Shown piece after piece: positions 33,814 through 55,335 of a stretch of 64,000 nt of DNA. The DNA is taken from positions 1 to 64,000 of the IMG/VR virus record IMGVR_UViG_3300043427_003220. One strand, given 5' to 3'. Within the stretch, counting starts at the first letter, position 1; every line of letters starts with the position of its first letter. The stretch comes from a virus. Position numbers and translations under genes: made by a program. Below the pieces are notes generated by a model. It ran no database searches. It was given only the letters and a program-made list of their open reading frames with translations, and was not told the origin of the DNA.

Positions 33814-34494
33814 ATGGCCAAGGTGACTGAACAACAGCTAGCTCAGCAGAAACTCTTGAAAGAACTTCAAGAGGCATACGAGCGTGACTATACTTGGCTA
33901 ACAGAAGAAGAGCGCAATATTGCAGAGAGAGCGTTGGCCGCTCAAAAAACGCTCGTTGTTAGTCCCTCTCAGGAGGCCGCTTTGTTCGGTGTCTATGCCA
34001 TGGGCAGGACTTGTGTTCAGATTGCCAGGCAGTCGGGTCACCTGCCTGAAACTATCGTCCTAAGTCTACTAAGATACAATTGGTGTCTTAGGATGCAGAT
34101 GGCCAACCAACAAGCAGACGGCAGCGTTTTAGAGGTCTTTGGTAAAGAGGCTATTGACACAATCTTTACTATGACTAAGATTGCGATTGAGAACGACTTG
34201 AAGAAAGTTTTGGCCGGCGAGATGGCTGCTGGCGACTCCGGCTTTGTGCCAAAAAACATCAAAGAGATGAAAGACTTTTTAGGGATTGTTGGCGAAGTCC
34301 ACAAGATTGATGCCTTCATGCGCCTTTCCGCCAAACAGCCTCTTGTGAATGTCAGTAACCAGACGTTAACTCTGAATGGCGGTCAGACACAGGCTCAGAC
34401 TCAAGTCACAGATGCTCAAACCGTTGAATTGCTTGAGACTTCTGAAAAACGTATTGAAGCCTTGAAGGCTCTTGAAGAAGAATCAAAAGAATAG
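33814..34494 (+). CDS. Possible small terminase subunit (HTH-like protein)
   Basis: The 226-aa product has a segment near 67-95 (GRTCVQIARQSGHLPETIVL, then LRYNWCL) that reads like a helix-turn-helix, followed by coiled-coil helices and a Gln/Thr-rich tail. Small terminase subunits bind DNA with an N-terminal HTH and oligomerise through a coiled coil. The large subunit is 5 kb downstream, so adjacency does not confirm the call. A transcription regulator is an alternative. No ribosome site lies at the usual distance; a hairpin appears to bridge the gap. Confidence 0.4.
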   Translation: MAKVTEQQLAQQKLLKELQEAYERDYTWLTEEERNIAERALAAQKTLVVSPSQEAALFGVYAMGRTCVQIARQSGHLPETIVLSLLRYNWCLRMQMANQQADGSVLEVFGKEAIDTIFTMTKIAIENDLKKVLAGEMAAGDSGFVPKNIKEMKDFLGIVGEVHKIDAFMRLSAKQPLVNVSNQTLTLNGGQTQAQTQVTDAQTVELLETSEKRIEALKALEEESKE

Positions 34495-34497
34495 TTA

Positions 34498-34526
34498 TTG
34501 ACATTCTTTTTGCTGTAGTCTACAAA
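34498..34526 (+). promoter_or_regulatory. Sigma-70-like promoter
   Basis: TTGACA (34498-34503, perfect -35), a 17-nt spacer and TACAAA (34521-34526). It lies upstream of the sigma-28-type site at 34556, so the gene at 34614 may have two promoters under different sigma factors. Confidence 0.5.
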
Positions 34527-34555
34527 TAAAAGACTTATTCAAATAAAAAAACAAT

Positions 34556-34582
34556 TAAAGTTTCTCCTTGACCCTCCGATAA
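34556..34582 (+). promoter_or_regulatory. Sigma-28 (FliA)-type promoter, site 3
   Basis: TAAAGTTT (34556-34563), an 11-nt spacer and TCCGATAA (34575-34582): 15 of 16 consensus positions. The start codon at 34614 follows, with GGAGG between them. Confidence 0.72.
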
Positions 34583-34613
34583 GACTTATGTAAGTCAACT
34601 ACGGAGGTCTTCC

Positions 34614-34934
34614 ATGAACAATCTTCAAGCCCAAGCCAGAACCTTCATTGAAACTGCAACCAAGCACAAATTCAACATTGTTGCGACCAGCGACACTGTC
34701 ATCAGAATTACGAGAAAGTTTGAAGTAGGTGACCGTCAAGCATTCTGTGAGTGCGACATGATGGCTTCCAGTGTCCTTGATTTGGCTCCCTTGAAGGGCG
34801 GTTCTGTCTGGGGCACTGATGGTGGTTCTATTGGCGGAGCTGTTGCTCTGCAGGATGGCCTATTTGTCATGAATAAGTCTGGTTCAGGCGGAGCACGCTT
34901 CATGCGTGAACTGCGCAAGCAGCTTGGTCAATAG
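34614..34934 (+). CDS. Hypothetical 106-aa protein under a sigma-28-type promoter
   Basis: The product has a beta-rich middle (FNIVATSDTVIRITRKFEVG) and a Gly/Ser-rich region (LKGGSVWGTDGGSIGGAVAL) before a short basic C-terminal helix (RFMRELRKQLG). It has the strong ribosome site CGGAGG. It forms its own unit, with a promoter before it and tandem 10-nt repeats overlapping its stop. No family is recognised. Confidence 0.65.
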   Translation: MNNLQAQARTFIETATKHKFNIVATSDTVIRITRKFEVGDRQAFCECDMMASSVLDLAPLKGGSVWGTDGGSIGGAVALQDGLFVMNKSGSGGARFMRELRKQLGQ

Positions 34935-34979
34935 AAGTCAATAGAAGTCAATAGATTGGCCGATAGAAGGTCAATAGAA
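34927..34979 (+). repeat. Short tandem repeats of GTCAATAGAA
   Basis: GTCAATAGAA occurs at 34927 and 34937 and GTCAATAGAT at 34947, directly in tandem. A fourth exact copy lies at 34970. The first copy contains the stop codon of the gene before. The array lies just upstream of a sigma-28-type promoter, so it could be a regulator-binding array or simply slippage product. Confidence 0.8.
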
Positions 34980-34986
34980 TTTTTGT

Positions 34987-35013
34987 TAAAGTTATTTTTG
35001 AGCGTGACGATAA
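34987..35013 (+). promoter_or_regulatory. Sigma-28 (FliA)-type promoter, site 4
   Basis: TAAAGTTA (34987-34994), an 11-nt spacer and GACGATAA (35006-35013): 14 of 16 consensus positions. The start codon at 35034 follows with GGGGGTGAG between. Confidence 0.68.
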
Positions 35014-35033
35014 GTTATTCATGGGGGTGAGTT

Positions 35034-35237
35034 ATGTACGTAGTGATTATTGACTCTGCAACTGACGGCTGGACTGTAAACCAATCTTTTGAAGCTGAGT
35101 TCTCAACGCTCGGCGAGGCAGAATCCTATGTGCGCACGCTTGAGCGTTGGTCTGCTACTGATAGTCAAAAACAGTTGTGGATTTCTCATGGTCCACAGTT
35201 TAGAATTTTTTGTGAAGAATCAGGCGAATACGTTTAA
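35034..35237 (+). CDS. Hypothetical 67-aa protein
   Basis: This small soluble protein (YVVIIDSATDGWTVNQSFEA, then LGEAESYVRTLERW) has a beta-alpha-beta look. Its start MYVVIIDSATDGW and the later aromatic residues resemble the small proteins at 36522 and 48905, which also open with a beta strand MxVYxI and have a charged helix. It is the first gene of a unit under sigma-28-type promoter 4, with the lipoprotein gene next. Function is unknown. Confidence 0.6.
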   Translation: MYVVIIDSATDGWTVNQSFEAEFSTLGEAESYVRTLERWSATDSQKQLWISHGPQFRIFCEESGEYV

Positions 35238-35252
35238 TTTATGGAGGTATTT

Positions 35253-35627
35253 ATGTTTAAGTATTTGATTTCTTTTGTTTTGTTGGTCGGTTGCGGTGCT
35301 CCTCAAACGCCAGTAGAGGTGTCAGCAGATAAAATGCTACATGATTTTGTGACTGATTGTAAGTCTGTTTATGGAGATAGATGCAACACTTCTATAGTCA
35401 TTCATAGTTTGGCAGAGTCTGCTGAAGAAGAGGCTTGTTGGTTTGAGGATGGCAATCCCGTTAGGCAAATTGTGCCATACAAAGGCTTTGTGGCTCAAAA
35501 CAATAAAACCGCTGTTTATGAGCTATTGTTTTTTTGTAACTTGAATTTAGGAACACTAGAGAGTAAACTGTTAAAGTTTGATGAATTTGCGTTGGTATTA
35601 GGGTTGACAAAACAGGAGCAGCAATGA
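35253..35627 (+). CDS. Predicted lipoprotein 1
   Basis: The start is ATG 35253 with GGAGG 5 nt upstream, giving 124 aa. The N-terminus MFKYLISFVLLVGCGAP is a signal peptidase II signal with lipobox LVGC, so Cys14 would be lipidated. The mature part is acidic with five further Cys (DCKSVYGDRC, EEEACW, FFCNLN), which may pair in the periplasm. Phage lipoproteins often act in lysis (outer spanin) or superinfection exclusion; neither is shown here. The next gene overlaps by ATGA. Confidence 0.7.
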   Translation: MFKYLISFVLLVGCGAPQTPVEVSADKMLHDFVTDCKSVYGDRCNTSIVIHSLAESAEEEACWFEDGNPVRQIVPYKGFVAQNNKTAVYELLFFCNLNLGTLESKLLKFDEFALVLGLTKQEQQ

Positions 35628-35836
35628 CGGAATCACAATGGCTTCAGGCACAACAAGCCTATGACAGAGTAAGAGCCTTACTAGTTAAGGACGGTCAAAC
35701 AATGGAGCAAGCTCAAAAAACGCTTGAAACGCTTGTTTTGTTTGTAATGGGAAGTAAGCTTTCAAAAGAAGAAAACAATGTTGATTTAGCTAGATTTATT
35801 GAAGCCATGTTAAAGGGCGATAAGCCTCAATGTTAA
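35624..35836 (+). CDS. Hypothetical 70-aa helical protein
   Basis: This gene is translationally coupled to the lipoprotein gene (ATGA). It encodes a small all-helical protein (QWLQAQQAYDRVRALLVKDG, then EQAQKTLETLVLFVMGSK) with an acidic second helix and no membrane segment. No family is recognised. Confidence 0.6.
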   Translation: MTESQWLQAQQAYDRVRALLVKDGQTMEQAQKTLETLVLFVMGSKLSKEENNVDLARFIEAMLKGDKPQC

Positions 35837-35848
35837 GGAATTTTAATT

Positions 35849-36094
35849 ATGGAACAGCAATGGATTAGCGCCAAAAAAGCAAAAAAAATGCTTAAAATTG
35901 ATGAAGAACAGTTAGATATTTTAGAAAAACAGGGAAAAGTTAAAACAATTCAGTCTATTGGCAATAAACTGTATCTTTTGTCTAGTCTTTCTGAAGAAAA
36001 GATTGAGTCTTTGCCACAAGAAACGCAAAAAAATATTCAAAAAAACGTATTTAAAAGATTTTTTTCTAAAGTTTTTTCTTGGCTTTCTGTTTAA
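35849..36094 (+). CDS. Possible small DNA-binding protein (excisionase/MerR-like helix)
   Basis: The first 50 residues of this 81-aa protein (WISAKKAKKMLKIDEEQLDI, LEKQGKVKTIQSIGNKLYLL) follow the layout of helix-turn-helix_17/excisionase domains, which begin with an aromatic residue, a helix, a turn and a KV-x-wing. The C-terminal 25 residues are basic and amphipathic (FKRFFSKVFSWLSV) and may touch a membrane or partner. It is a candidate regulator of the accessory genes. The match is by pattern only. Confidence 0.5.
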   Translation: MEQQWISAKKAKKMLKIDEEQLDILEKQGKVKTIQSIGNKLYLLSSLSEEKIESLPQETQKNIQKNVFKRFFSKVFSWLSV

Positions 36095-36134
36095 TTGTTT
36101 GAAAAAAATATATTTTTTCTAACTAGGAATTTTT

Positions 36135-36473
36135 ATGAAACATTTATTTTTATGTGTATTATTGGTTGGTTGTGCGACATCTCCGCAAGTTCCAAATTTG
36201 GCTCCACAACCAACGCCCTCCCCTACCCAAACGCCCAAACGCAAGCCAAAATACAAGGTTGGCGACTGTCTTATGATTGTAGATTTGATTAAAGGCGAAA
36301 CTGAATCTCGCCATAGAGTCAAAATTGAGAAAGTCGGCGTAGATCGTTATTACTACAGATGGCTTCTTGACGACGGACGTTGGGACTCGGAATTATCTGG
36401 CAGCGCTGGCAAATTTGAAGTTTTAGAAAAAATTTCAAAAAAAGTGTTTGACTGCCCTAAAGTTTCACAATAA
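36135..36473 (+). CDS. Predicted lipoprotein 2, proline-rich linker
   Basis: The signal MKHLFLCVLLVGCATS carries lipobox LVGC. A Pro/Thr-rich linker follows (PNLAPQPTPSPTQTPKRKPK), then a compact beta domain of about 70 residues (YKVGDCLMIVDL, HRVKIEKVGVDRYYYRWLLDDG) with two Cys. A linker then small domain is typical of proteins that reach through the periplasm from a lipid anchor; an outer spanin has similar proline content but no such domain. The following promoter overlaps the end of this gene. Confidence 0.68.
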   Translation: MKHLFLCVLLVGCATSPQVPNLAPQPTPSPTQTPKRKPKYKVGDCLMIVDLIKGETESRHRVKIEKVGVDRYYYRWLLDDGRWDSELSGSAGKFEVLEKISKKVFDCPKVSQ

Positions 36474-36484
36474 ACAGTCGATAA
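36458..36484 (+). promoter_or_regulatory. Sigma-28 (FliA)-type promoter, site 5
   Basis: TAAAGTTT (36458-36465, perfect), an 11-nt spacer and GTCGATAA (36477-36484): 15 of 16 consensus positions. The -35 box lies inside the last codons of the lipoprotein gene. The start codon at 36522 follows. Confidence 0.7.
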
Positions 36485-36521
36485 GTCTTACATGAGCAAT
36501 TCAGCTCGTAAAGGAGGCTTT

Positions 36522-36764
36522 ATGCAGGTTTATGTAATTACTTCAGTGGTTAATTCATATGAAGATGTTTCTCCAAATTATGGCGCTGCCAGTGTGTGGT
36601 ACGAAGTGTTTCGTAATAAGGAAGATGCTGTCAACCTTTTGAAAGAATGGGGCTGCGAGCCATTGTCAGACGCAGAAGATACCTTTGCTAGAAAAAAAGA
36701 AAAAGATGGGTGTGTTTACAATTTTTATTACAAAATCAACTCTCAGTTTTTTGCAGGAGCTTAA
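36522..36764 (+). CDS. Hypothetical 80-aa protein
   Basis: The start is ATG 36522 with AAAGGAGG 4 nt upstream. The product opens MQVYVITSVVNSYEDVSPNY and has a charged helix (RNKEDAVNLLKEWG) and aromatic strands (CVYNFYYKINSQFF). The beta-helix-beta layout resembles the small genes at 35034 and 48905, so these may be one family of tiny accessory proteins. Function is unknown. Confidence 0.62.
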   Translation: MQVYVITSVVNSYEDVSPNYGAASVWYEVFRNKEDAVNLLKEWGCEPLSDAEDTFARKKEKDGCVYNFYYKINSQFFAGA

Positions 36765-36765
36765 G

Positions 36766-36855
36766 ATGACAGAATATCAATTTTTTTTAATTTTTGCGGT
36801 TGCCGTAGCCGCATTGTTTGTGTTGGGGTTGACGGTTAATATCATTCAAGACTAA
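36766..36855 (+). CDS. Small single-pass membrane protein (29 aa)
   Basis: ATG 36766 lies one base after the previous stop, with AGGAG about 7 nt upstream. The peptide is MTEYQ, then a hydrophobic helix (FFLIFAVAVAALFVLGLTV), then NIIQD. The next gene has its own AAGGAG ribosome site beginning inside this stop. The ribosome site, tight spacing and clear membrane helix support a real gene. Confidence 0.55.
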   Translation: MTEYQFFLIFAVAVAALFVLGLTVNIIQD

Positions 36856-36867
36856 GGAGTCACTGTC

Positions 36868-37137
36868 ATGGCTAATCCAAAAGTGATACTTCAGGCAGCA
36901 GACTTCTTGACCAAAATGAACATACCCTATAAGTCCATCAAGATGTTTGGGAAGATGCTTATGATTAATACAACGGACTATGAATCTGCTTGTATTATTG
37001 AAAGTATCCTTAATGGCTCTGGCGCAGCCAATGTCAGTGTAGAGGCTCCAGAAGACCGCTATAGCGATGACTATGCGGTGGTTGGCCTTCTAAATGATGA
37101 AATTGAATACGATGACGAGCAGGATGAAGAGCAATGA
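36868..37137 (+). CDS. Hypothetical 89-aa acidic protein
   Basis: AAGGAG precedes the ATG at 36868. The N-terminal two thirds is a small alpha/beta domain (PKVILQAADFLTKMNIPYKS, then SACIIESILNGSGAANVSVE). The last 25 residues are very acidic (LNDEIEYDDEQDEEQ), like DNA-mimic or chaperone tails, though this alone proves nothing. It is coupled to the next gene by ATGA. Confidence 0.6.
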   Translation: MANPKVILQAADFLTKMNIPYKSIKMFGKMLMINTTDYESACIIESILNGSGAANVSVEAPEDRYSDDYAVVGLLNDEIEYDDEQDEEQ

Positions 37138-37328
37138 AACACTTAGTTGCAGCCATTATGTTTTTTCAGATTTGTGGCAATGATTTGGTAATTATTAAGA
37201 ACAATCAACCTTATGCCGTCTGCGGCACTGTAACGCAACTATGCAAAAGTCTTGACATTATTGATTTAATGCTGATTAGGCAGATTTCTTCTTGTTCAAC
37301 TTTAAAGAAGTTTAATGTTATTGAGTAG
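37134..37328 (+). CDS. Hypothetical small Cys-containing, possibly exported protein
   Basis: The 64-aa product starts MKHLVAAIMFFQICGND, a short hydrophobic stretch that might be a signal peptide. It contains four Cys in total (ICGN, VCGT, LCKS, SCST). The gene overlaps the previous stop and lies 9 nt before the metallopeptidase lipoprotein gene. Export and disulfide formation are plausible because its neighbour is also exported. No family is recognised. Confidence 0.55.
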   Translation: MKHLVAAIMFFQICGNDLVIIKNNQPYAVCGTVTQLCKSLDIIDLMLIRQISSCSTLKKFNVIE

Positions 37329-37337
37329 GAGCTTACT

Positions 37338-37940
37338 ATGCTGAAGGTACTTTTGGCTTTGTTGTTAATTGGGTGTGGAACCGTCGAGCAACAAATAATA
37401 GAAGTAGAAAAAGAAGTCCCTGTCCCGTTCTACATTGATAAGTCAAAAGTAGATTCTAAGCTGCTCCCATATGTCATGGAATTTGCAGGCCATTGTGAAA
37501 AGTTTGGAGTTTCTGAACTTTGTCAAAAAAACTTTAAAAAAATTAAATCAATTAAAACAGTTAAATCTTTTTCTGAAAAAATGGTTTTGGGCAAGTGCTA
37601 TATGCACCATAGTGGTCAAAGGTGGGTTGAGGTCACAGAAAGTTGGTACAACTTGGATTCACACTCCATGCGCACTGTCATTATTCATGAGATGATGCAC
37701 TGCACTTTGGCTGCTGGAGACGCCGAAATCTTTCCTCACTACGACGACGAAGAAGACATCATGAACAGCTACCTTTTGTCAGAAAAAACTTTGTTTTTTA
37801 ATTGGCCGGCTTTGTTGAAGGCTGTGTTTCTTAGGGCTGGCGGGACTTTGTCATTGACAAGCCCAGCAGAGACTGCTACAGTAACGCAAACCATAATGGA
37901 CGAAACGGGAGGAATATCTTGTGAAGCCAGAAAAGATTAG
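37338..37940 (+). CDS. Lipoprotein with zinc metallopeptidase (zincin) motif
   Basis: The 200-aa product has a lipoprotein signal (MLKVLLALLLIGCGT, Cys13 lipidated) and a zincin motif VIIHEMMHC: His117 and His121 are zinc ligands and Glu118 the general base. Thirteen residues later comes His134 (FPHYDDEED), a likely third ligand, then IMN (141-143), a possible Met-turn. The order HExxH ... H-x-D ... DIMN matches small metzincin-like proteins seen in some phages. An extended-zincin fit (HExxHxxGxxH) is not met exactly. It probably acts on an envelope or superinfecting-phage protein from the outer membrane; the substrate is unknown. Confidence 0.75.
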   Translation: MLKVLLALLLIGCGTVEQQIIEVEKEVPVPFYIDKSKVDSKLLPYVMEFAGHCEKFGVSELCQKNFKKIKSIKTVKSFSEKMVLGKCYMHHSGQRWVEVTESWYNLDSHSMRTVIIHEMMHCTLAAGDAEIFPHYDDEEDIMNSYLLSEKTLFFNWPALLKAVFLRAGGTLSLTSPAETATVTQTIMDETGGISCEARKD

Positions 37941-38295
37941 TTACGAAGCACTAAAAGAACAATTTCCAGAACTGCTTGATAAGTGCCCGATTGAAGTTAG
38001 AGAGGGATGGTACGGACTTGTTTGGGATATGTGTGAGCAGATATTGGCTGCACGCAAAGCCAAAAATATACCGATTGATGAAGAGAATCCCTTTTATTTT
38101 GTGCAAATTAAAGAAAAGTTTGGCACTTTGAGGGCATATGCTTCTTGGTCAACAGAGGAAGATGAAAAGATTATTTCTATGTTTGAAGATATGAGTCAGT
38201 TTGTCTGCGATGCCTGCGGCGGTGTTGGAAAACTCAGGGGTCAGTATTGGCTCTATACGGCCTGCGATGAGCATACAAACCCTAAAGACAGGTAA
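37921..38295 (+). CDS. Hypothetical protein with C-terminal zinc-binding Cys/His motif
   Basis: This 124-aa gene uses a GTG start inside the previous gene, with GGAGG 8 nt upstream. The core includes FVQIKEKFGTLRAYASW and the end holds CDACGGVG, then TACDEH, a four-ligand zinc site (CxxCG...CxxH). Proteins with KEKFGTLR plus this terminal zinc motif recur in metagenomic phages, without known function. It precedes the fructose-bisphosphatase gene by 3 nt and may share its message. Confidence 0.7.
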   Translation: MKPEKISYEALKEQFPELLDKCPIEVREGWYGLVWDMCEQILAARKAKNIPIDEENPFYFVQIKEKFGTLRAYASWSTEEDEKIISMFEDMSQFVCDACGGVGKLRGQYWLYTACDEHTNPKDR

Positions 38296-38298
38296 GAT

Positions 38299-39201
38299 AT
38301 GGATTTCTTTAAGTTTTTGCGAGTCACTGAAGCAGCAGCTATTGCTAGTTCTAAGTGGATTGGCAAGATGGACAAAAATGCAGCAGATGGAGCTGCTGTA
38401 GATGCCATGAGGGCAGAATTTGATTTTATGGATATTCAAGGCGTTGTGGCTATCGGTGAAGGCGAACTCGACGAAGCTCCTATGTTGTACATTGGCGAAA
38501 AGTTAGGGACAGGCCGTGGTGACAAGTATGACATTGCTGTAGACCCACTAGAGGGGACTGAGTTGGTTGCTAAGGGTAAACCCAATGCTATCTCTGTTAT
38601 GGCTGTAGGAGATTGGGGTTGCCTCATGAGAGCGCCTGATTGCTATATGGATAAGATAGTTGTGGGTTCAAACGCTAAAAGTGCTCTAGTAAGTCTATTC
38701 AAGACTCCTGAGCAAAACCTTAAAGCAATTGCCGACACAATGAGGAGGCCAGTCAAAGACCTGACTGTTTGTGTTTTAGATAGGCCAAGACATATTGATT
38801 TGATTAAAGAAATTACCCAATTAGGGGCTAAAATATCACTTATCAGTGACGGCGACGTACTCGCTGCTATTGGTGTGTGTATGGGCAAGTACGATGTGTT
38901 GATGGGTATTGGCGGCGCTCCAGAGGGTGTTGTATCGGCTGCAGCAGTCAAGAGTCTGGGTGGAAGGATTCTAGGACGTTTAGTATTAGATACATCAGAA
39001 CTCAAAGAACGAGCCGCCAAGATGCACAAACGCGAAGATATAGAGTACGATACGGTAGATATGGCTCATGGTGAACATATAGCCTTTATTGCGACGGGAG
39101 TGACAGACTCTTTCTTGTTGAACGGAGTCATCCACAATGAGGTCCATTCAGTTATACTGACTCCAAAAGAAAGAAGATTCATAAAGACAACTTATGGCTA
39201 A
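38299..39201 (+). CDS. glpX: Class II fructose-1,6-bisphosphatase (GlpX-like)
   Basis: The 300-aa enzyme converts fructose-1,6-bisphosphate to fructose-6-phosphate and phosphate; some GlpX enzymes also use sedoheptulose-1,7-bisphosphate. The match to bacterial GlpX (about 336 aa) is end to end. Metal and phosphate residues are kept: Asp30 (NAADGAAV), Glu54 (AIGEGELDEAPMLYIGE), Asp82 and Glu85 (AVDPLEGT), ISDGDV, and Glu209 (GIGGAPEGVVSAA). Only a short loop and the extreme C-terminus are missing, so it is probably active. It overlaps the large terminase start by 8 nt, so it is expressed with packaging genes. This is an auxiliary metabolic gene that would steer carbon to hexose and pentose phosphates for nucleotide synthesis (inference). 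Confidence 0.93.
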   Translation: MDFFKFLRVTEAAAIASSKWIGKMDKNAADGAAVDAMRAEFDFMDIQGVVAIGEGELDEAPMLYIGEKLGTGRGDKYDIAVDPLEGTELVAKGKPNAISVMAVGDWGCLMRAPDCYMDKIVVGSNAKSALVSLFKTPEQNLKAIADTMRRPVKDLTVCVLDRPRHIDLIKEITQLGAKISLISDGDVLAAIGVCMGKYDVLMGIGGAPEGVVSAAAVKSLGGRILGRLVLDTSELKERAAKMHKREDIEYDTVDMAHGEHIAFIATGVTDSFLLNGVIHNEVHSVILTPKERRFIKTTYG

Positions 39202-41170
39202 GAAAAAAGAACCAGAAATAACAGAAGAACAGCGACTGCGCATTGAGATGCGTAAGCGCCTTTTGTTTACTATTTGTGAATCTAAAGAAGAGCTTCAACA
39301 ATTTATTAAAACTTTCCTTAAGCTAGATTTGCCAGACTGTACAGTAGACGAACTGTCTACTTCTAATCCTATGGAGTCAGTTTGGCAAATTTACTGTACA
39401 ATGAGGACCAACAAGGGCGCCCATCGTGTTGTCGTGGCTGCTTCTCGTAACTCAATGAAGACCGTTATGTCGGCAGTCATTCACTGGTTGGCCATGGTTC
39501 ACTTTAGAAGGTCATGCCTGCAGATTGCCGCCATCAAAGACCAATCTTATAAGGCAATCAAGTATCTTAAGAAATTCCTCCGTATTCCGGAACTTCAAGA
39601 CCACTTTGAAACAAACAGAGCAGGCGAACTTAGACTATCTAATTTGCCTCCCAACTCATATACATCTAAAGATGATGCAGACGTATTTGTGACAGCAGCA
39701 ACCCTTGAAGGTGCTAACTCATCACGTGCGTCTATTATCATTCGAGATGAGTGTGACTTAACACCCAGAGAGATTCTTTCAGAAGTTGCTATGGTTGCCG
39801 ACCCTACTCAAGACGAACACGGCTTTGAGCCAATCACAATTTCTTTGTCGTCTCGCAAGACTTCTCAGGGACCCTTGCAAGAATTGATGGAAGAGGCCGA
39901 GAAGGGCGAAGATACGGACATTAGGTTGGATAAGTGGTCAGCAGTAGACTTCATGAGAAAGTGCCCTCCCGAAGTTCACGGAGAGAAAAGACTCAAGGCA
40001 TACCTTCATACGGAAAACCTTAAAGTTAGATGGGATGAGGAGACATTTCAAGAAGAGCCGCAGGCTATCAAAACCAAGTACAAAGAAATATTGGCCTACG
40101 AAGGCTGCGTTACTTGTCCTGCGTTTATTGCCTGTCAAGCTCGCGCTCCTAAGCAAACAGGCAAGTCAAAGACATTAAGAACAATTGCCTTTACGGGCAA
40201 CTTTATTAAAGAAACCAAAGAAGCCAATAAGATTATTGCCCAGATTTTGAACTGGCGTCCTGAAACCGGCGGCTTAGTGTTTCCTACGTTTAGTCGTCAT
40301 CTTCACGTGAGAAACGTGGAAGAAACTTGGCTTTGGGTAACTGGTCAACAATGGAAAGCGAATAGAAAATGCACTAAGCAGGATGTCTATGCTTGGGCAG
40401 TGACGAACAAGTGGGAAGTTAGCTTCGGTGTTGACTGGGGTGTTAGAGATGCCGCCGTGGTTACGGTAATTCTGTATTCACAAACTCAATCGCGTTGCAT
40501 TGTTTTAAGCGTTCGCGCAGCTACGGGCTACCCTAACTCTCAGTGGGCTGAAACTATTAGACAAAAAGAATGTATGACTTTTCCGCCAGACATTATCTGC
40601 CCTGATATGGCTGATGCTGGCTCGGCCCATTATTTTCAGCCGTATGGTTTCGCCGTCAAAACTAAAAAGCCAGCTCAAATTGAAACAGGTGTAAGCCAAA
40701 TTCAGTCGTTATTGTGGAATGTCGAAAGACAAGAGGCCGACGTAGTATTTTGCAAGACGGAAAACGATTCGGGGATGGACTTTGCTATTGATTGTATGAT
40801 TGGTTGGATGCACAAGAAAGACCCCCGTGGAGAGTTTGACACAAGTCGATACGAAGACGATGATAACACTCACTTTCCCGATGCTTTTCGTTATGCGTTG
40901 GACAAATATCGAACTTCTATGGAAATTCGTATCGCCTCCAAAAAGAATATTGAACAGGCCCCCATGACTCGCGAACAAGCCTATCGCAAAGATATTGATG
41001 CCGCTATGTACGATACCTATAAAGAAATGGGCGTCCCTATGATGCCGTCGCAACTAGCTGAAATGACTATAGACGCTTACAGAAAAGCTGGCATGGGGCA
41101 CCTTATTGAGGGTGATTCTCAGGGGCCGGCTCCTGAGCCAAAGAAAAAATTAATCAAATTTAGTATTTAA
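39194..41170 (+). CDS. terL: Large terminase subunit
   Basis: The 658-aa motor packages DNA into the prohead and cuts it. The ATPase part has a deviant Walker A AASRNSMKT (82-90) and Walker B SIIIRDECDL (180-189, Asp185-Glu186). TISLSSRK may be the coupling motif. The nuclease part has the RNase H-like first acidic strand SFGVDWGVRDAAVV (about 408-421), PDIICPDMADAG and the final FPDAFRYAL (about 562). A Cys-containing insert (about 305-325) separates the domains. Its start overlaps the fructose-bisphosphatase gene. The layout resembles headful and cohesive-end enzymes alike, so the packaging mode is not decided. Confidence 0.92.
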   Translation: MAKKKEPEITEEQRLRIEMRKRLLFTICESKEELQQFIKTFLKLDLPDCTVDELSTSNPMESVWQIYCTMRTNKGAHRVVVAASRNSMKTVMSAVIHWLAMVHFRRSCLQIAAIKDQSYKAIKYLKKFLRIPELQDHFETNRAGELRLSNLPPNSYTSKDDADVFVTAATLEGANSSRASIIIRDECDLTPREILSEVAMVADPTQDEHGFEPITISLSSRKTSQGPLQELMEEAEKGEDTDIRLDKWSAVDFMRKCPPEVHGEKRLKAYLHTENLKVRWDEETFQEEPQAIKTKYKEILAYEGCVTCPAFIACQARAPKQTGKSKTLRTIAFTGNFIKETKEANKIIAQILNWRPETGGLVFPTFSRHLHVRNVEETWLWVTGQQWKANRKCTKQDVYAWAVTNKWEVSFGVDWGVRDAAVVTVILYSQTQSRCIVLSVRAATGYPNSQWAETIRQKECMTFPPDIICPDMADAGSAHYFQPYGFAVKTKKPAQIETGVSQIQSLLWNVERQEADVVFCKTENDSGMDFAIDCMIGWMHKKDPRGEFDTSRYEDDDNTHFPDAFRYALDKYRTSMEIRIASKKNIEQAPMTREQAYRKDIDAAMYDTYKEMGVPMMPSQLAEMTIDAYRKAGMGHLIEGDSQGPAPEPKKKLIKFSI

Positions 41171-42334: not shown

Positions 42335-43315
42335 ATGTCCTATCTATCTTTGACTCTAAATACAGCGGCCTCTTCAGTTGAAAACCCGCTAAAATCAACA
42401 ACCGCAGCAACTATGAACTTTGAAGTTGCTGGACTAGTCCTCGATATTGCCGAGGGCTTTAGCGTATCTCTTGACCCCTATGAAGAGCGCATTATTGCGT
42501 CAACTCGCAAGTCACTGTCTCTTGACGCCACAACACAACTTCAGATTATTCAGCCTTATAATAGTTTAGGGCAGGAATCTCTTTGGAGAGTGCAGTGGAT
42601 TGGCGGCACAAACCCTAACTTTCGTGTTAGAAGGTCACTTACGGTTAACTCTACGACCACCGTCAGCGTAACTCGCCTTAATGATATTGTTGCTCGTGTG
42701 CAGTTTTCAGGAGCAATTGGCTCGAATGCAAAATTAAACGATATTCTTCTCTTTGAAAAAGACAATGATATTGGTTTACAATCTCCTTTCAATGCGGTCA
42801 ATACCGGCATTCCTTGTCGTATTGTAGGAGTTGGAGCAGACTTCCTCGACGTGGAAGATTCAGGAGTTCTTGTTAATGACCCAAGTGTTCTCCTTGGCGT
42901 TGATTATCTCGATGTACTCAAAGTCTTTTCCGCTATTGGTGCTCAAATCACTGATACTCTGAGTATTTCATCTTCTGCATTCAACTACGGAAACCGAGGT
43001 TCGTTCAAGATTGTTGCTGTGTCGGCAGACTATATTGACATTGAAGCGCCATCTCTTGTTCCCGAAACGGTATCCAACATTACCGAAGGTTTTAGAATTT
43101 TCATTAATACTATTTATTACATTGCCCTGAAGGCAAAGGGTTCGTTTAAGTTGGTCGTTGATGAAAAAGAACTTGACCTTTCTCCGTTAGGTGATACAGC
43201 TATATTTGCAAGCTCCGTGACTTGCTCAGAAGTTATTGTTAAGAATATGTCTGATGGTATGTTGTCTGTTGAGGGTCTTTGGTGCGCTTCTGGTATAAAC
43301 GGAACTGCTTGTTAA
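42335..43315 (+). CDS. Probable structural protein upstream of the portal
   Basis: The 326-aa product is beta-rich and Thr/Ser/Val-rich, with repeated strand pairs (NDIVARVQFSGAIGSNAKLN, ADFLDVEDSGVLVND, ADYIDIEAPSLVPE). Two DxxDVED/DYIDIEA-like segments (about 172 and 236) hint at an internal repeat, also similar to phrases in the long fibre at 57604 (NAGYIDVVNPKRTD). A head- or neck-associated virion protein is the best guess. It lacks major capsid signatures. Confidence 0.55.
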   Translation: MSYLSLTLNTAASSVENPLKSTTAATMNFEVAGLVLDIAEGFSVSLDPYEERIIASTRKSLSLDATTQLQIIQPYNSLGQESLWRVQWIGGTNPNFRVRRSLTVNSTTTVSVTRLNDIVARVQFSGAIGSNAKLNDILLFEKDNDIGLQSPFNAVNTGIPCRIVGVGADFLDVEDSGVLVNDPSVLLGVDYLDVLKVFSAIGAQITDTLSISSSAFNYGNRGSFKIVAVSADYIDIEAPSLVPETVSNITEGFRIFINTIYYIALKAKGSFKLVVDEKELDLSPLGDTAIFASSVTCSEVIVKNMSDGMLSVEGLWCASGINGTAC

Positions 43316-43330
43316 TAATAGGAAATTTCA

Positions 43331-45325
43331 ATGTCAGACGATAAGAAAATTACTATCAAAATAGCAGACGGCATAAGTCCAGACGAAAACATCAACGTCA
43401 ACTCGATTGATGATGTGACTGGAATCATTAAGCAGCGCCTTGGTCGCACAATGCTATCTAAGTCCGATGTCCAAAAAATCAACGAAGAAGAGTTCAAAAA
43501 GCGCAAATACAAACAATCTAAAGTCAAGTTTGGTTCACGCTTTAATACTCGCATTGGTGTAGGCGACTCTCTTTCAAAAGAGCCCAAGCGCCTCTCAGAC
43601 GCTGAACTCAAAGAGCTTTCATTGATTGACCCATATATTGGCGCAATCATCAACACCCGTGTTGCCCAAATTTCTAGCTTTGGTGCCCAATCTGAGTCTA
43701 AGTTTGACAAGGGTGTTCGCGTTATCGACCTAGAAGAGATTCGCCGTGAAGACTTTGAGACAGAAGAAGCTTTTGAGCGCGAACTCAAACTTCGTGAAGC
43801 GGAAAAGAAAGCCATCCTTGAGTGGGTACTGAAGTGCGGCACGTCGGACAAAAGAATCCTTGATGAGATGTATGAAGCCGCCGACCCTACTTTCAAGCAT
43901 TGTTCTTTGAAGGACTACTTTCAGGCTCAGTCCCGTGCATTGTTGACGTTTGGCCGTAGTGCTAGACAGAACCTTCTAAATGCTGATGGGACTATCTGCG
44001 CTTTTAGGCCAACTCCTATTGAGACTATCAAGCAAGTTAAGTTTGGCTCTAAGGTTCATGTAACCGCTGTCTCTGATATTGCTCAGCAGTCAGAAGTAGA
44101 CGCTGAGCAGTACAACAAGATTCCTGTAAACGACAAGCCCATCGCTTACGTACAAGAAGTAGACGGCGTTCAGACTGGTTTCTTTACTGAAGAAGACTTG
44201 AAAGTTGTTTACTATCAAGTTCAATCATTCCTTGACCTCAATGGTTACCCAATGGGGCCTATTGAGTTTGCTTTGTTCTTGGTTTACATTCATCAGCACA
44301 CATTGAGTTACCTCCGCAATCAGTTTGTAAAGGGTCAGCTCTCAAAGAGCATGATTGTCATTAGGCCAACCGACCCATCAGTCAAAATTTCTGATGAAGA
44401 TATTGAATCTTTTAAGATGGAGATTCAAAACCTAGCCACAAGAACAGACAATAGTGCTGTCATTCCAGTCATTGGTGGGCCGGTTGAGCTTGAACTTATC
44501 AAGACAACCGAGACTCCAAAAGATATGGAATGGATGCAGGTCGAGCAAACGGTCATTCGTGCATTGTGCTCTGCCTTTCAGATTTCCCCTACAGAAGCTG
44601 GCTTTGGACAGTTGGGCGATACTGCAGGCATGGGGCAAGGTTCACGTGACTACGAACTTGTTCAAGGTGAAGAGCGCGGCCTAAGACTCTTAGTAGATAT
44701 CTTGATGGAAGACATCAATGATGCCGTCTATCAAAACTTCCCCGAAGCCAAGAAGCGTTACAAGGTAGCAGCATTCGGCGTTGGTAATGAGACACGTGAA
44801 GGCGTGTTGCAACGCCAAGTCCAAGAGCTACAGACGACAGCAACTCTAAATTCGCTGTTCAGCGATTCTGACAAAAATAGACAATTTGAGTATGGCGGCG
44901 ACGTTCCTCTAGCCCCAGCATTCCACCAAAACGTGGCTCGCTATATGACTTATGGAAAGTTTATGGAAACGTACTTTGGAATGGAAGGTGCAAGTAAGCG
45001 CCCAGAGTTAGACTTTATTATTGACCCCAACCTCAATCAAGCCTATCAGCAACTCAAGATGGGTATGCAGCAGATGCAGGCTCAGCAGCAGGCATTGGGA
45101 TTGCAGGGCCAACAGATGCAGCTTGAGATGCAACAGGCTCAGATGCAACAGGCGGCTCAAGGCGGACAACCACAACAGGGTCAACCTCAACAACAGCCAG
45201 AAGAGCAGCAGAAGTCAGAAGACGTTGAGCTTCAAAAAGCATGGGAAGAGTCTATGAAGTCTAACCACGAAAGCCTATTGAAATCATGGCTTAGGATTCA
45301 TGACTCAAAGATTGATGAAGAATAA
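43331..45325 (+). CDS. Portal protein
   Basis: The 664-aa product forms the ring through which DNA enters and leaves the head. Typical features: the N-terminal LSLIDPYIGAIINTRVAQISSF, a long helical region around EIRREDFETEEAFERELK, the crown/stem region VYIHQHTLSYLRNQFVKGQ, the SKSMIVIRPTDPSV strand, and EWMQVEQTVIRALCSAFQIS with PTEAGFGQLGDTAGMGQGSRDYE, a portal signature. The C-terminal 90 residues are extremely Gln-rich (about 575-635), low complexity, before a final acidic helix. It lies downstream of the terminase and HNH genes, as expected. Confidence 0.88.
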   Translation: MSDDKKITIKIADGISPDENINVNSIDDVTGIIKQRLGRTMLSKSDVQKINEEEFKKRKYKQSKVKFGSRFNTRIGVGDSLSKEPKRLSDAELKELSLIDPYIGAIINTRVAQISSFGAQSESKFDKGVRVIDLEEIRREDFETEEAFERELKLREAEKKAILEWVLKCGTSDKRILDEMYEAADPTFKHCSLKDYFQAQSRALLTFGRSARQNLLNADGTICAFRPTPIETIKQVKFGSKVHVTAVSDIAQQSEVDAEQYNKIPVNDKPIAYVQEVDGVQTGFFTEEDLKVVYYQVQSFLDLNGYPMGPIEFALFLVYIHQHTLSYLRNQFVKGQLSKSMIVIRPTDPSVKISDEDIESFKMEIQNLATRTDNSAVIPVIGGPVELELIKTTETPKDMEWMQVEQTVIRALCSAFQISPTEAGFGQLGDTAGMGQGSRDYELVQGEERGLRLLVDILMEDINDAVYQNFPEAKKRYKVAAFGVGNETREGVLQRQVQELQTTATLNSLFSDSDKNRQFEYGGDVPLAPAFHQNVARYMTYGKFMETYFGMEGASKRPELDFIIDPNLNQAYQQLKMGMQQMQAQQQALGLQGQQMQLEMQQAQMQQAAQGGQPQQGQPQQQPEEQQKSEDVELQKAWEESMKSNHESLLKSWLRIHDSKIDEE

Positions 45326-52957: not shown

Positions 52958-53881
52958 TTACCAAATCTTTAATTGATTCAAAGCGTCTATAAACTTTTTG
53001 CTAGTCATTTTCGTAACGCACTCAGCAATTTCCATCTTGCGAGGACAATTAGCAAAGTTCCAATAGTTTAACGACCAATCGGACTCGCAAAAGCTGCAGG
53101 CAATGTTAGGAACAACAGCAATTGTTGGAACGCGGCCTCTATAGGGAATACGAAGGTCTGGCTTGATGGTTGTAAAGCCACAGACAACAGGAGTTCTTGT
53201 TGTCCAAGCAATATGTATAGGTCCGCCGTCCATCCCCACAATAGCTTTGGCTTGGCTCATAATAGTGGCAAGTTCTCTGAATGTTGTATCGTCTCTAAGG
53301 TCTACTCCAAATCCTGGGTACTCAAAGTCACTTGCAGCAAGGCTGGTTTTCCAAATAGAAATAGCTCCTCTCTTGCCCACATAAACAGGAGTCAAACCCT
53401 TGGAATAAACATATTCAGCAATCTTGGTGATTTCTTCTGGCAAGATTGTGCGTTGCTTGTCTCTATAAGTTGTGATGATAATGACTGACTTTGAAAAGTC
53501 TACGCCATAGCGATTGACATCTGCTGGCAAAAGAGGAACATACTGAGCATCAACGTCGTCAATAACGCGCCCCAATAAACCAATAGATGCGTATTGAGTT
53601 AACTTCATTCGAGATGGAGTTAGCTTACAAACATGATTGCCAACTCCAAGCATATTTAAGTGCCTGATTGAATAACCTGCAGGATACTGAGCGGTTACCT
53701 CGGTAAACTTACTTTCAGGAACAAAATGAAAGAAATCTTTAAAGTCTGGGTAAATTCCAACAAGATAATCATCTGTTCTTCTGTGGAAGTTTTCAATAGC
53801 GAACTTTAAAGAAGGAGCTGCGGCTATTAAATCGCCCACGGCAGCAGAGTTCAAACAATATACGACTTTATCTGCAATCAT
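52958..53881 (-). CDS. GT9-family (heptosyltransferase-like) glycosyltransferase
   Basis: The 307-aa product has the GT9 layout of ADP-heptose:LPS heptosyltransferases: an N-terminal Rossmann part (VYCLNSAAVGDLIAAAPSLK), a middle sheet (KSVIIITTYRDKQRTILPEE), then the donor-binding signature LATIMSQAKAIVGMDGGPIH, IAWTTRTPVVCGFT. The GDxGPxH motif of the family appears here as MDGGPIH. The start is ATG 53881 with AGAGG 7 nt upstream. Four Cys near the end (ACSFCESDW, NCPRKMEIAEC) may bind metal. It could alter host surface sugars to block superinfection, or decorate a phage component; the acceptor is unknown. Confidence 0.8.
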   Translation of the reverse strand: MIADKVVYCLNSAAVGDLIAAAPSLKFAIENFHRRTDDYLVGIYPDFKDFFHFVPESKFTEVTAQYPAGYSIRHLNMLGVGNHVCKLTPSRMKLTQYASIGLLGRVIDDVDAQYVPLLPADVNRYGVDFSKSVIIITTYRDKQRTILPEEITKIAEYVYSKGLTPVYVGKRGAISIWKTSLAASDFEYPGFGVDLRDDTTFRELATIMSQAKAIVGMDGGPIHIAWTTRTPVVCGFTTIKPDLRIPYRGRVPTIAVVPNIACSFCESDWSLNYWNFANCPRKMEIAECVTKMTSKKFIDALNQLKIW

Positions 53882-53883
53882 AA

Positions 53884-55335
53884 TCAAACCTCTTTATATA
53901 CAATATCGTCCGTTATTGTTTCATATACGTTATATCTTGACTTAGCATACTGTTTAAAAATATCAAAGAACTTTTCGCTGTCATTGTTCCAAATTCCATA
54001 CCCAGCAGTTGTAATATCAATAAAAATTAGTTTTTTGCCCTTCTTGTATCGCAATCCACGGCCAATAACCTGCCGAGTCAAAGCCTCTGCTGAGTTCTGA
54101 ACACAAGAAATCATGAAGTCAACATCAGGCAAGTCGATACCCTCTCCAAGCAAACTGCTATTGGAGATTAGTAAATTTGTTTTGCCGTCTTTAAATTTAT
54201 AAAAAGGATTGCGATATCCACTATGGGCGGGCTCACAAGATATCCCCATCTCAGTTGCATACTCGCAAAACTCTGCCGACGGCTCTACGGTCTTAAACAA
54301 CACTAAGACTTTAAGACCCTTGTTCAGCCCGCTCTTTACTAGATTAAGCACCGTATGGAGTGCTTTCTCATGAGTCGAAAGCATCTTATAAGCTGTTTGC
54401 TGATGAGTCATTTCTCGAACGCGACCAAGCCCAGTAATTGTAAGGCAGGTGATGGCTACAGGACAAAGATACTCATTATCAATAGCCCATTTACTGTCCC
54501 TCTGAAAGACGATAGGACCTACAATCCCATGAAAACCTAGCTCTAGGTTGTCTGCCCTGACTGGAGTCGCAGTAAAGCCATAGATATACTTGGCTCGACT
54601 CCCAAAGATAGCCAGCTCTTTATACATATTAGAGGAAGAATGATGAGCTTCGTCGATGATGATGGCATCAAAAATGTCCGAATAGTTACGGCCACTGTTA
54701 ACAGTAGCAATAGCAATATCGACACCCTCTTTAAATTTGTGTTTGCCTCCAATTCCGCAGCTCTTGGGAGCAATCTGTTTAATGTCTTTGAGCATCTGAG
54801 AAATGAGTTCGACAGTAGGGACAACAATCAGGACTCTAAGGCCACGCTCGATGAGGGCGCGGCTCAGTAGACTGATACACATTGACTTGCCCGTTCCCGT
54901 GGGAAGAACGATACAGCCCCTTTTGTATTGCAGAGCCGTTCTAACGGCATCAGCCTGATAGTCTCTTGGAACTTTAGGGCCAACTGGAGACAGGTTAAGC
55001 TCCTTGCTTTTTTCCTTGTGACCATCCATATTGGGCACAAGCCACCAAAAACCTGGGGGTACGCTCAAAGTGCCGTCCTCGTTGTCGCCATAAAACTCAA
55101 CCTTAGTTTCCAGTTCTAACTGTGCAATTTCATTCTTTATTTTAATTGCGTGCTTGTCGTTGTAAGGTTTTTGACGTTTGAGCTGTTTAATCTTTGAAAT
55201 GACACCTTTATTTTCAACTGTTAAGAGATTCTTGACAGTTTCAAGTACACTCACAGAGCCAGACAAGGTGATTTCATTGTTCTTGTATTCGCCAATAAGG
55301 CCGTGTATGGGTTCAAAAGCATTATCTTTAGCCAT
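53884..55335 (-). CDS. Superfamily 2 DEAH-box helicase
   Basis: The 483-aa product carries the SF2 motifs in order: Q-like PRDYQADAV (about 123-131), Walker A LPTGTGKS (144-151), Ia VVPTVELISQ, II IIIDEAHH (215-222), III GFTATPVR (243-250), then domain 2 with LGEGIDLPDVDFMI (motif V) and TRQVIGRGLRYKKGK (motif VI). This is the layout of T4 UvsW and RadD-like enzymes, which remodel branched DNA or RNA-DNA hybrids. It has an N-terminal extension of about 110 residues. The ribosome site is CGGAG. It is the first gene of a six-gene minus-strand operon with a clear promoter. Confidence 0.9.
   Translation of the reverse strand: MAKDNAFEPIHGLIGEYKNNEITLSGSVSVLETVKNLLTVENKGVISKIKQLKRQKPYNDKHAIKIKNEIAQLELETKVEFYGDNEDGTLSVPPGFWWLVPNMDGHKEKSKELNLSPVGPKVPRDYQADAVRTALQYKRGCIVLPTGTGKSMCISLLSRALIERGLRVLIVVPTVELISQMLKDIKQIAPKSCGIGGKHKFKEGVDIAIATVNSGRNYSDIFDAIIIDEAHHSSSNMYKELAIFGSRAKYIYGFTATPVRADNLELGFHGIVGPIVFQRDSKWAIDNEYLCPVAITCLTITGLGRVREMTHQQTAYKMLSTHEKALHTVLNLVKSGLNKGLKVLVLFKTVEPSAEFCEYATEMGISCEPAHSGYRNPFYKFKDGKTNLLISNSSLLGEGIDLPDVDFMISCVQNSAEALTRQVIGRGLRYKKGKKLIFIDITTAGYGIWNNDSEKFFDIFKQYAKSRYNVYETITDDIVYKEV

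Follow-up and report, generated by a model that had tools for sequence, protein, structure and literature searches.

An intact class II fructose-1,6-bisphosphatase gene directly before the large terminase gene of a large tailed phage

A large tailed phage carries an intact, selectively maintained GlpX, i.e., a class II fructose-1,6-bisphosphatase (FBPase), encoded directly before the gene of its packaging motor. Judging from sequence, this gene is probably a functional auxiliary metabolic gene encoding an ordinary FBPase, whose placement would reflect cargo and not a packaging function. The window, i.e., the whole stretch of 64,000 nucleotides that was analysed, is taken from an IMG/VR virus record of 162,747 bp.

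The glpX gene and its predicted enzyme

The gene (38299-39201, plus strand) encodes 300 aa from an ATG start and is identified by two family models, an AlphaFold2 model and structure matches. Its product matches PF03320 (FBPase_glpX) with an E of 1.6e-111 and 372.6 bits, against a cut-off of 27, and the NCBIfam equivalog TIGR00330 (glpX) with 312.1 bits, against a cut-off of 259.3; its best solved relative by sequence is E. coli GlpX 1ni9 (E 1.5e-76). A 124-aa gene (37921-38295, plus strand), found upstream of glpX throughout the lineage (contigs L002-L006 and L093), ends 3 nt before it. At its other end, glpX overlaps the open reading frame of the large terminase, TerL (39194-41170, plus strand), by exactly 8 nt, ATGGCTAA, the ATG of TerL overlapping the stop of glpX. 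TerL, which is without Pfam or PHROG match, is 29% identical to the annotated TerL of Myxococcus phage Mx1 (E 2e-51). The portal protein (43331-45325, plus strand) is recognised by PHROG portal families, with PF04860 under its cut-off and 24% identity to the Mx1 portal, and baseplate genes also lie within the window. The earlier note had described a complete phage-borne GlpX sharing 8 nt with the terminase gene and keeping all its catalytic residues, a description borne out by the open reading frame, both family matches and the residues detailed below. That the flanking DNA could be a bacterial chromosome is excluded, as the window belongs to a virus record and glpX is flanked there by genuine phage genes (terminase, portal and baseplate).

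The metal, nucleophile and sugar-binding positions were compared singly with the mechanism published for the Francisella class II FBPase, in which Asp84, Leu86 and Glu57 are at the metal (84DPLE87), Thr89 is the nucleophile, Arg165-Pro-Arg167 binds the 6-phosphate and the IxDGD motif binds the furanose (PMC10289334). All these residues are present in the window GlpX. Codons 82-87 (DPLEGT; 38542-38559, plus strand) align with the metal site, as Asp82, Leu84 and Glu85, and with the nucleophile, as Thr87 at the N-terminus of a helix; codons 162-164 (RPR; 38782-38790, plus strand) align with the 6-phosphate-binding Arg-Pro-Arg, and codons 182-186 (Ile182-Ser-Asp-Gly-Asp186; 38842-38856, plus strand) with the IxDGD motif, which binds the furanose hydroxyls. 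Glu54 (38458-38460, plus strand), equivalent to the Francisella Glu57 near the metal (PMC10289334), is invariant in 60/60 GlpX rows.

The AlphaFold2 model, built from 31 aligned sequences, reaches a pLDDT of 94.4. Its top structure match is E. coli GlpX with fructose-1,6-bisphosphate (2r8t; Z 43.0, rmsd 1.7, 299/300 residues), and the dual FBPase/sedoheptulose-1,7-bisphosphatase (SBPase) of Thermosynechococcus (5a5l) is matched with a Z of 41.5. The window GlpX is 43-49% identical to the solved class II FBPase structures. For such a predicted model, likeness of structure alone does not separate an FBPase from a dual FBPase/SBPase.

Proposed metabolic role and the heptose branch

The reading that requires the fewest assumptions is a metabolic one. 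The enzyme would remove the 1-phosphate of fructose-1,6-bisphosphate, and possibly also that of sedoheptulose-1,7-bisphosphate; its catalysis would depend on a divalent metal held at Asp82, the Leu84 carbonyl, Glu85 and Glu54, with Thr87 as the nucleophile. As the end of glpX overlaps the start of TerL, both would be expected to be translated together and, through this co-translation with the terminase, GlpX would probably act in the later part of infection. Sugar flow would be made irreversible toward fructose-6-P or sedoheptulose-7-P, which could then give pentose phosphates for nucleotides, or sugars for glycans or heptose; the late need for sugar phosphates that the phage would thus satisfy could concern nucleotides, glycans or both. 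The pentose-phosphate and nucleotide destination would be plausible; GmhA, encoded by the same phage, points to an alternative one. An FBPase would be useful only with a host that makes hexose out of smaller carbon compounds or depends on a cycle in which FBPase is needed. What is observed is that the gene is the homologue of a cellular metabolic gene and is under purifying selection in phages (dN/dS about 0.1). A search of the record for thymidylate synthase, made as a first look at metabolism, was negative. With GlpX, the carbon requirements of a phage late in infection become open to testing.

The sedoheptulose product raises another possibility, which we consider unlikely: GlpX could be mainly a sedoheptulose-1,7-bisphosphatase feeding the phage GmhA, so as to provide heptose for glycosylation of the phage or host surface, with the later steps supplied by the host. 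GmhA consumes sedoheptulose-7-P, and a GmhA-like isomerase is encoded in the same record (156941-157543 of the record; TIGR00441, E 2e-61, 206.6 bits, just under the cut-off of 209.45), its PDB matches being mostly phosphoheptose isomerases. Conservation of this isomerase is 82% in the L004/L005 phage and 92% in L150, a contig whose sample number is that of L002 and L093. The record also holds a heptosyltransferase-like glycosyltransferase of family 9 (52958-53887 of the window, minus strand; PF01075, E 8.1e-8), a possible downstream user, and the GlpX model is nearly as close to the dual FBPase/SBPase structures as to FBPases. However, neither a PfkB nor a CTP-transferase-like domain, the two halves of HldE, is found in the record, which rules out a complete ADP-heptose pathway of the phage itself. 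Furthermore, neither in the clade B contigs (see below), which reach 223 kb, nor in contig L003, of 110 kb, was GmhA found, and GmhA occurs in other phage contigs that lack GlpX; as each of the two occurs in contigs without the other, they are not strictly linked. Family 9 transferases are present in 15/26 records searched, a raw count given without a background rate. The whole branch, going from GlpX through GmhA, the host ADP-heptose enzymes and the phage family 9 glycosyltransferase to heptose on virions or on the host surface late in infection, appears rather improbable; if true, it would mean that host carbon is diverted into heptose decoration during late infection.

Several other genes deserve mention. 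The GmhA-like gene ends a block (155590-157543 of the record, plus strand) that also comprises an alliinase/aminotransferase-like and a cytidine-deaminase-like gene and is kept in L144/L145. In two clade B phages (L146 and L147), family 9 glycosyltransferase domains lie inside open frames of roughly 680 aa. Elsewhere in the record are found a protein of the deoxyhypusine synthase family, unexpected in a phage (66939-67901, plus strand; L128:2939-3901; PF01916, E 2.8e-40, under the NCBIfam equivalog cut-offs), a divergent GroEL-like chaperonin (133642-135255, minus strand; L131:9642-11255; PF00118, E 1e-25) and a protein of the Mom family of DNA modification (130298-130939, minus strand; L131:6298-6939; PF25680, E 1.1e-23). 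The same phage encodes an AAA-domain protein, ClpX-like by sequence (PF07724 AAA_2, ClpB_D2-small), together with a ClpP-family protease (930-1862 of the window and 117162-118133 of the record, both minus strand).

Position and residence of glpX in the phage lineage

Among isolates, Myxococcus phage Mx1 is the only one with a TerL match to the window, and it is also the first-listed match for the portal and DNA polymerase III. A putative small terminase, TerS (33814-34494, plus strand), is 23% identical to the gene directly before the Mx1 TerL (E 1e-10) and has a counterpart in contig L141 (E 5e-14); as it has no family match, it is named by position and homology only. The gene between TerL and portal (42335-43315, plus strand) also belongs to the packaging core, with 27% identity over 200 aa to the Mx1 gene at the same position (E 2e-10). 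The Mx1 order is thus the TerS homologue, TerL, the homologue of 42335-43315 and the portal, without GlpX between them, and GlpX is not found anywhere in the whole Mx1 record. L141, whose TerL is 47% identical to that of the window, has the same core, again without GlpX between its genes. Putative TerS and TerL are adjacent in Mx1 and one small gene apart in L141, whereas the gap of the window lineage (34495-39193, plus strand) is about 4.7 kb long and contains GlpX along with small genes that are variable. Since related phages keep the TerS-TerL-portal core without GlpX and the gap holds variable small genes, the position of GlpX is best read, from gene order, as cargo between the putative TerS and TerL. 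The gap between the two terminase genes would then be a place where phages store cargo.

The earlier note had seen in the adjacency to the terminase gene a hint of a second role, which the comparison with related packaging cores does not support. GlpX as a virion or packaging factor, or as a phosphatase with a moonlighting activity on nucleotides or signals, is in our view highly unlikely. The 8-nt overlap with TerL would fit such a role, as would the location of GlpX between TerL and portal in an unrelated lineage (L096, L097) and the distant likeness of its fold to inositol monophosphatase and PAP phosphatase (Z about 12). However, the sugar-specific RPR and IxDGD motifs are intact, GlpX is not conserved with the packaging core of the related phages Mx1 and L141, and most viral GlpX genes are not adjacent to TerL in the contexts compared, being for instance about 7 kb downstream of it in L115-L119. 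A packaging role therefore has little support. The search of phage sequences for GlpX beside terminases, which the note had proposed, does find such cases, in L002-L006 and L093 and, between TerL and portal, in L096/L097. Its presence beside TerL in a second, unrelated lineage is somewhat unlikely under pure chance insertion, and we read it as recurring insertion into a tolerant region, the cases being few and the pattern noticed after the fact.

Coming back to the reading of GlpX as a metabolic gene carried as cargo, the gene is found in the identical slot in six more viral contigs (L002-L006 and L093). The copies of L002-L006, among which L004-L006 look like one phage, are 82-94% identical to that of the window. 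L093 retains the order 124-aa gene, GlpX, TerL, with a TerL and a portal that are respectively 88% and 93% identical to those of the window, whereas GlpX and the preceding gene are each only 55% identical. This difference between GlpX and its TerL neighbour indicates, as far as sequence comparison can tell, that GlpX is old in the lineage and that the rate of evolution or recombination on the cargo side of TerL is far above that on the packaging side. The dN/dS of GlpX is 0.09-0.16 (ten pairs of distinct clade A copies), its GC content is ordinary for the record, and so is its codon usage, 13/37 size-matched genes being nearer the record mean. With a dN/dS of about 0.1 and phage-typical codon usage, GlpX would be a long-resident and functional phage gene. 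That it is a functionless passenger recently picked up from a host, as the bacterial nature of the family and the place of the clade A sequences among bacterial ones in the tree might suggest, was already disfavoured and is extremely improbable given this selection, this codon usage and a slot kept among copies 55-94% identical.

As a separate observation, the TerL genes of L002 (8896-12126) and L141 (4983-8222) contain an intein-like insertion (about 418 aa in L002), which is absent from the window TerL. It is located after the equivalent of residue 561 of the latter, begins with Cys and ends in VQN or VHN, before a Cys.

Spread among viruses and comparison with known systems

Scans of IMG/VR show that about 20 contigs carry GlpX relatives, and GlpX is the only gene common to all contigs of the viral GlpX set. 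In one of them (L095:505-2663), the GlpX frame lies inside a 719-aa open frame, possibly through a fusion or an open contig end. The earlier note knew of no established phage GlpX, and this stands for the reference collections: at E 1e-3, PHROGs contain no GlpX family and BFVD no structure match to the GlpX model, and no genuine GlpX is found in annotated phage isolates. The "phage" matches in the latter are Salmonella/Escherichia sequences and one short metagenomic piece; one Salmonella record, when opened, turned out to be a bacterial contig filed among phages, with glpK beside glpX. It no longer holds for metagenomic viruses, given the IMG/VR contigs and two surveys of 2025: in the passages concerned, a soil study lists glpX as a viral auxiliary metabolic gene, stated to be previously unreported (PMC12615777), and a trench study lists it as such, too (PMC12448302). 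Both passages mention it in passing, so that the likeness to the window gene is one of gene name. A central-carbon enzyme thus recurs as phage cargo, including in a second viral clade, yet is missing from standard phage family libraries.

In the tree, the viral sequences form clade A, which is that of the window (support 100/97), and clade B (13 sequences, support 100/100). The two clades are apart, which suggests separate origins without proving them, as a single clade is not rejected by the AU test (p 0.34). The donor-lineage tree called for in the earlier note gives a partial answer: clade A is located among the bacterial sequences, and by path Myxococcota are its nearest neighbours; the forks are open, however, and clade A as sister of the Oligoflexia row is not rejected either (AU test, p 0.21). 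Better donors may exist, as the genome scan favoured sequences that contain two motifs of clade A. Together with the kinship to Mx1, the nearest tree neighbours loosely point to Myxococcota or their relatives as hosts, which is to be taken as a lead only. The window lineage, whose closest isolate has Myxococcus as host, appears to have fixed an irreversible step of gluconeogenic or Calvin type.

Clade B (L096-L099, L111-L121 and L127) is likewise phage-borne, in diverse and unrelated contexts, with two clusters near a terminase gene. The clade B proteins that were compared with the window GlpX share about 39-41% identity with it. The clade differs by the change of DGD to DCD in 13/13 sequences and of PEG to PEA in 12, and the Glu of the GEGE motif is changed to Lys in several members. 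Judging from the DCD and Lys changes, the clade B substrate may be different from that of the window GlpX.

Phage genes tilting host carbon metabolism are known, mostly from cyanophage work. The cyanophage carbon genes talC, cp12, zwf and gnd (PMC10452541) likewise provide a phage-encoded step of central carbon metabolism, but GlpX is a different enzyme acting at a different step. As transaldolase is not found in any of 16 GlpX-carrying records, a cyanophage-like pentose shunt is ruled out and the cyanophage pathway logic is not repeated here. With bacterial GlpX (E. coli 2r8t/3d1r, Francisella 7txa, M. tuberculosis 7txb), the window enzyme shares its fold along the entire chain (Z about 42-43) and the metal, nucleophile and sugar-phosphate binding residues; it is however shorter than E. 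coli GlpX (300 vs. about 336 aa) and, unlike the bacterial enzymes, has its gene in a phage packaging operon. It also shares family and fold with the cyanobacterial dual FBPase/SBPase (3roj, 5a5l; Z about 41), to which it is 44% identical. As a gene of central carbon metabolism, GlpX recurs among phages, and it is not a new kind of system.
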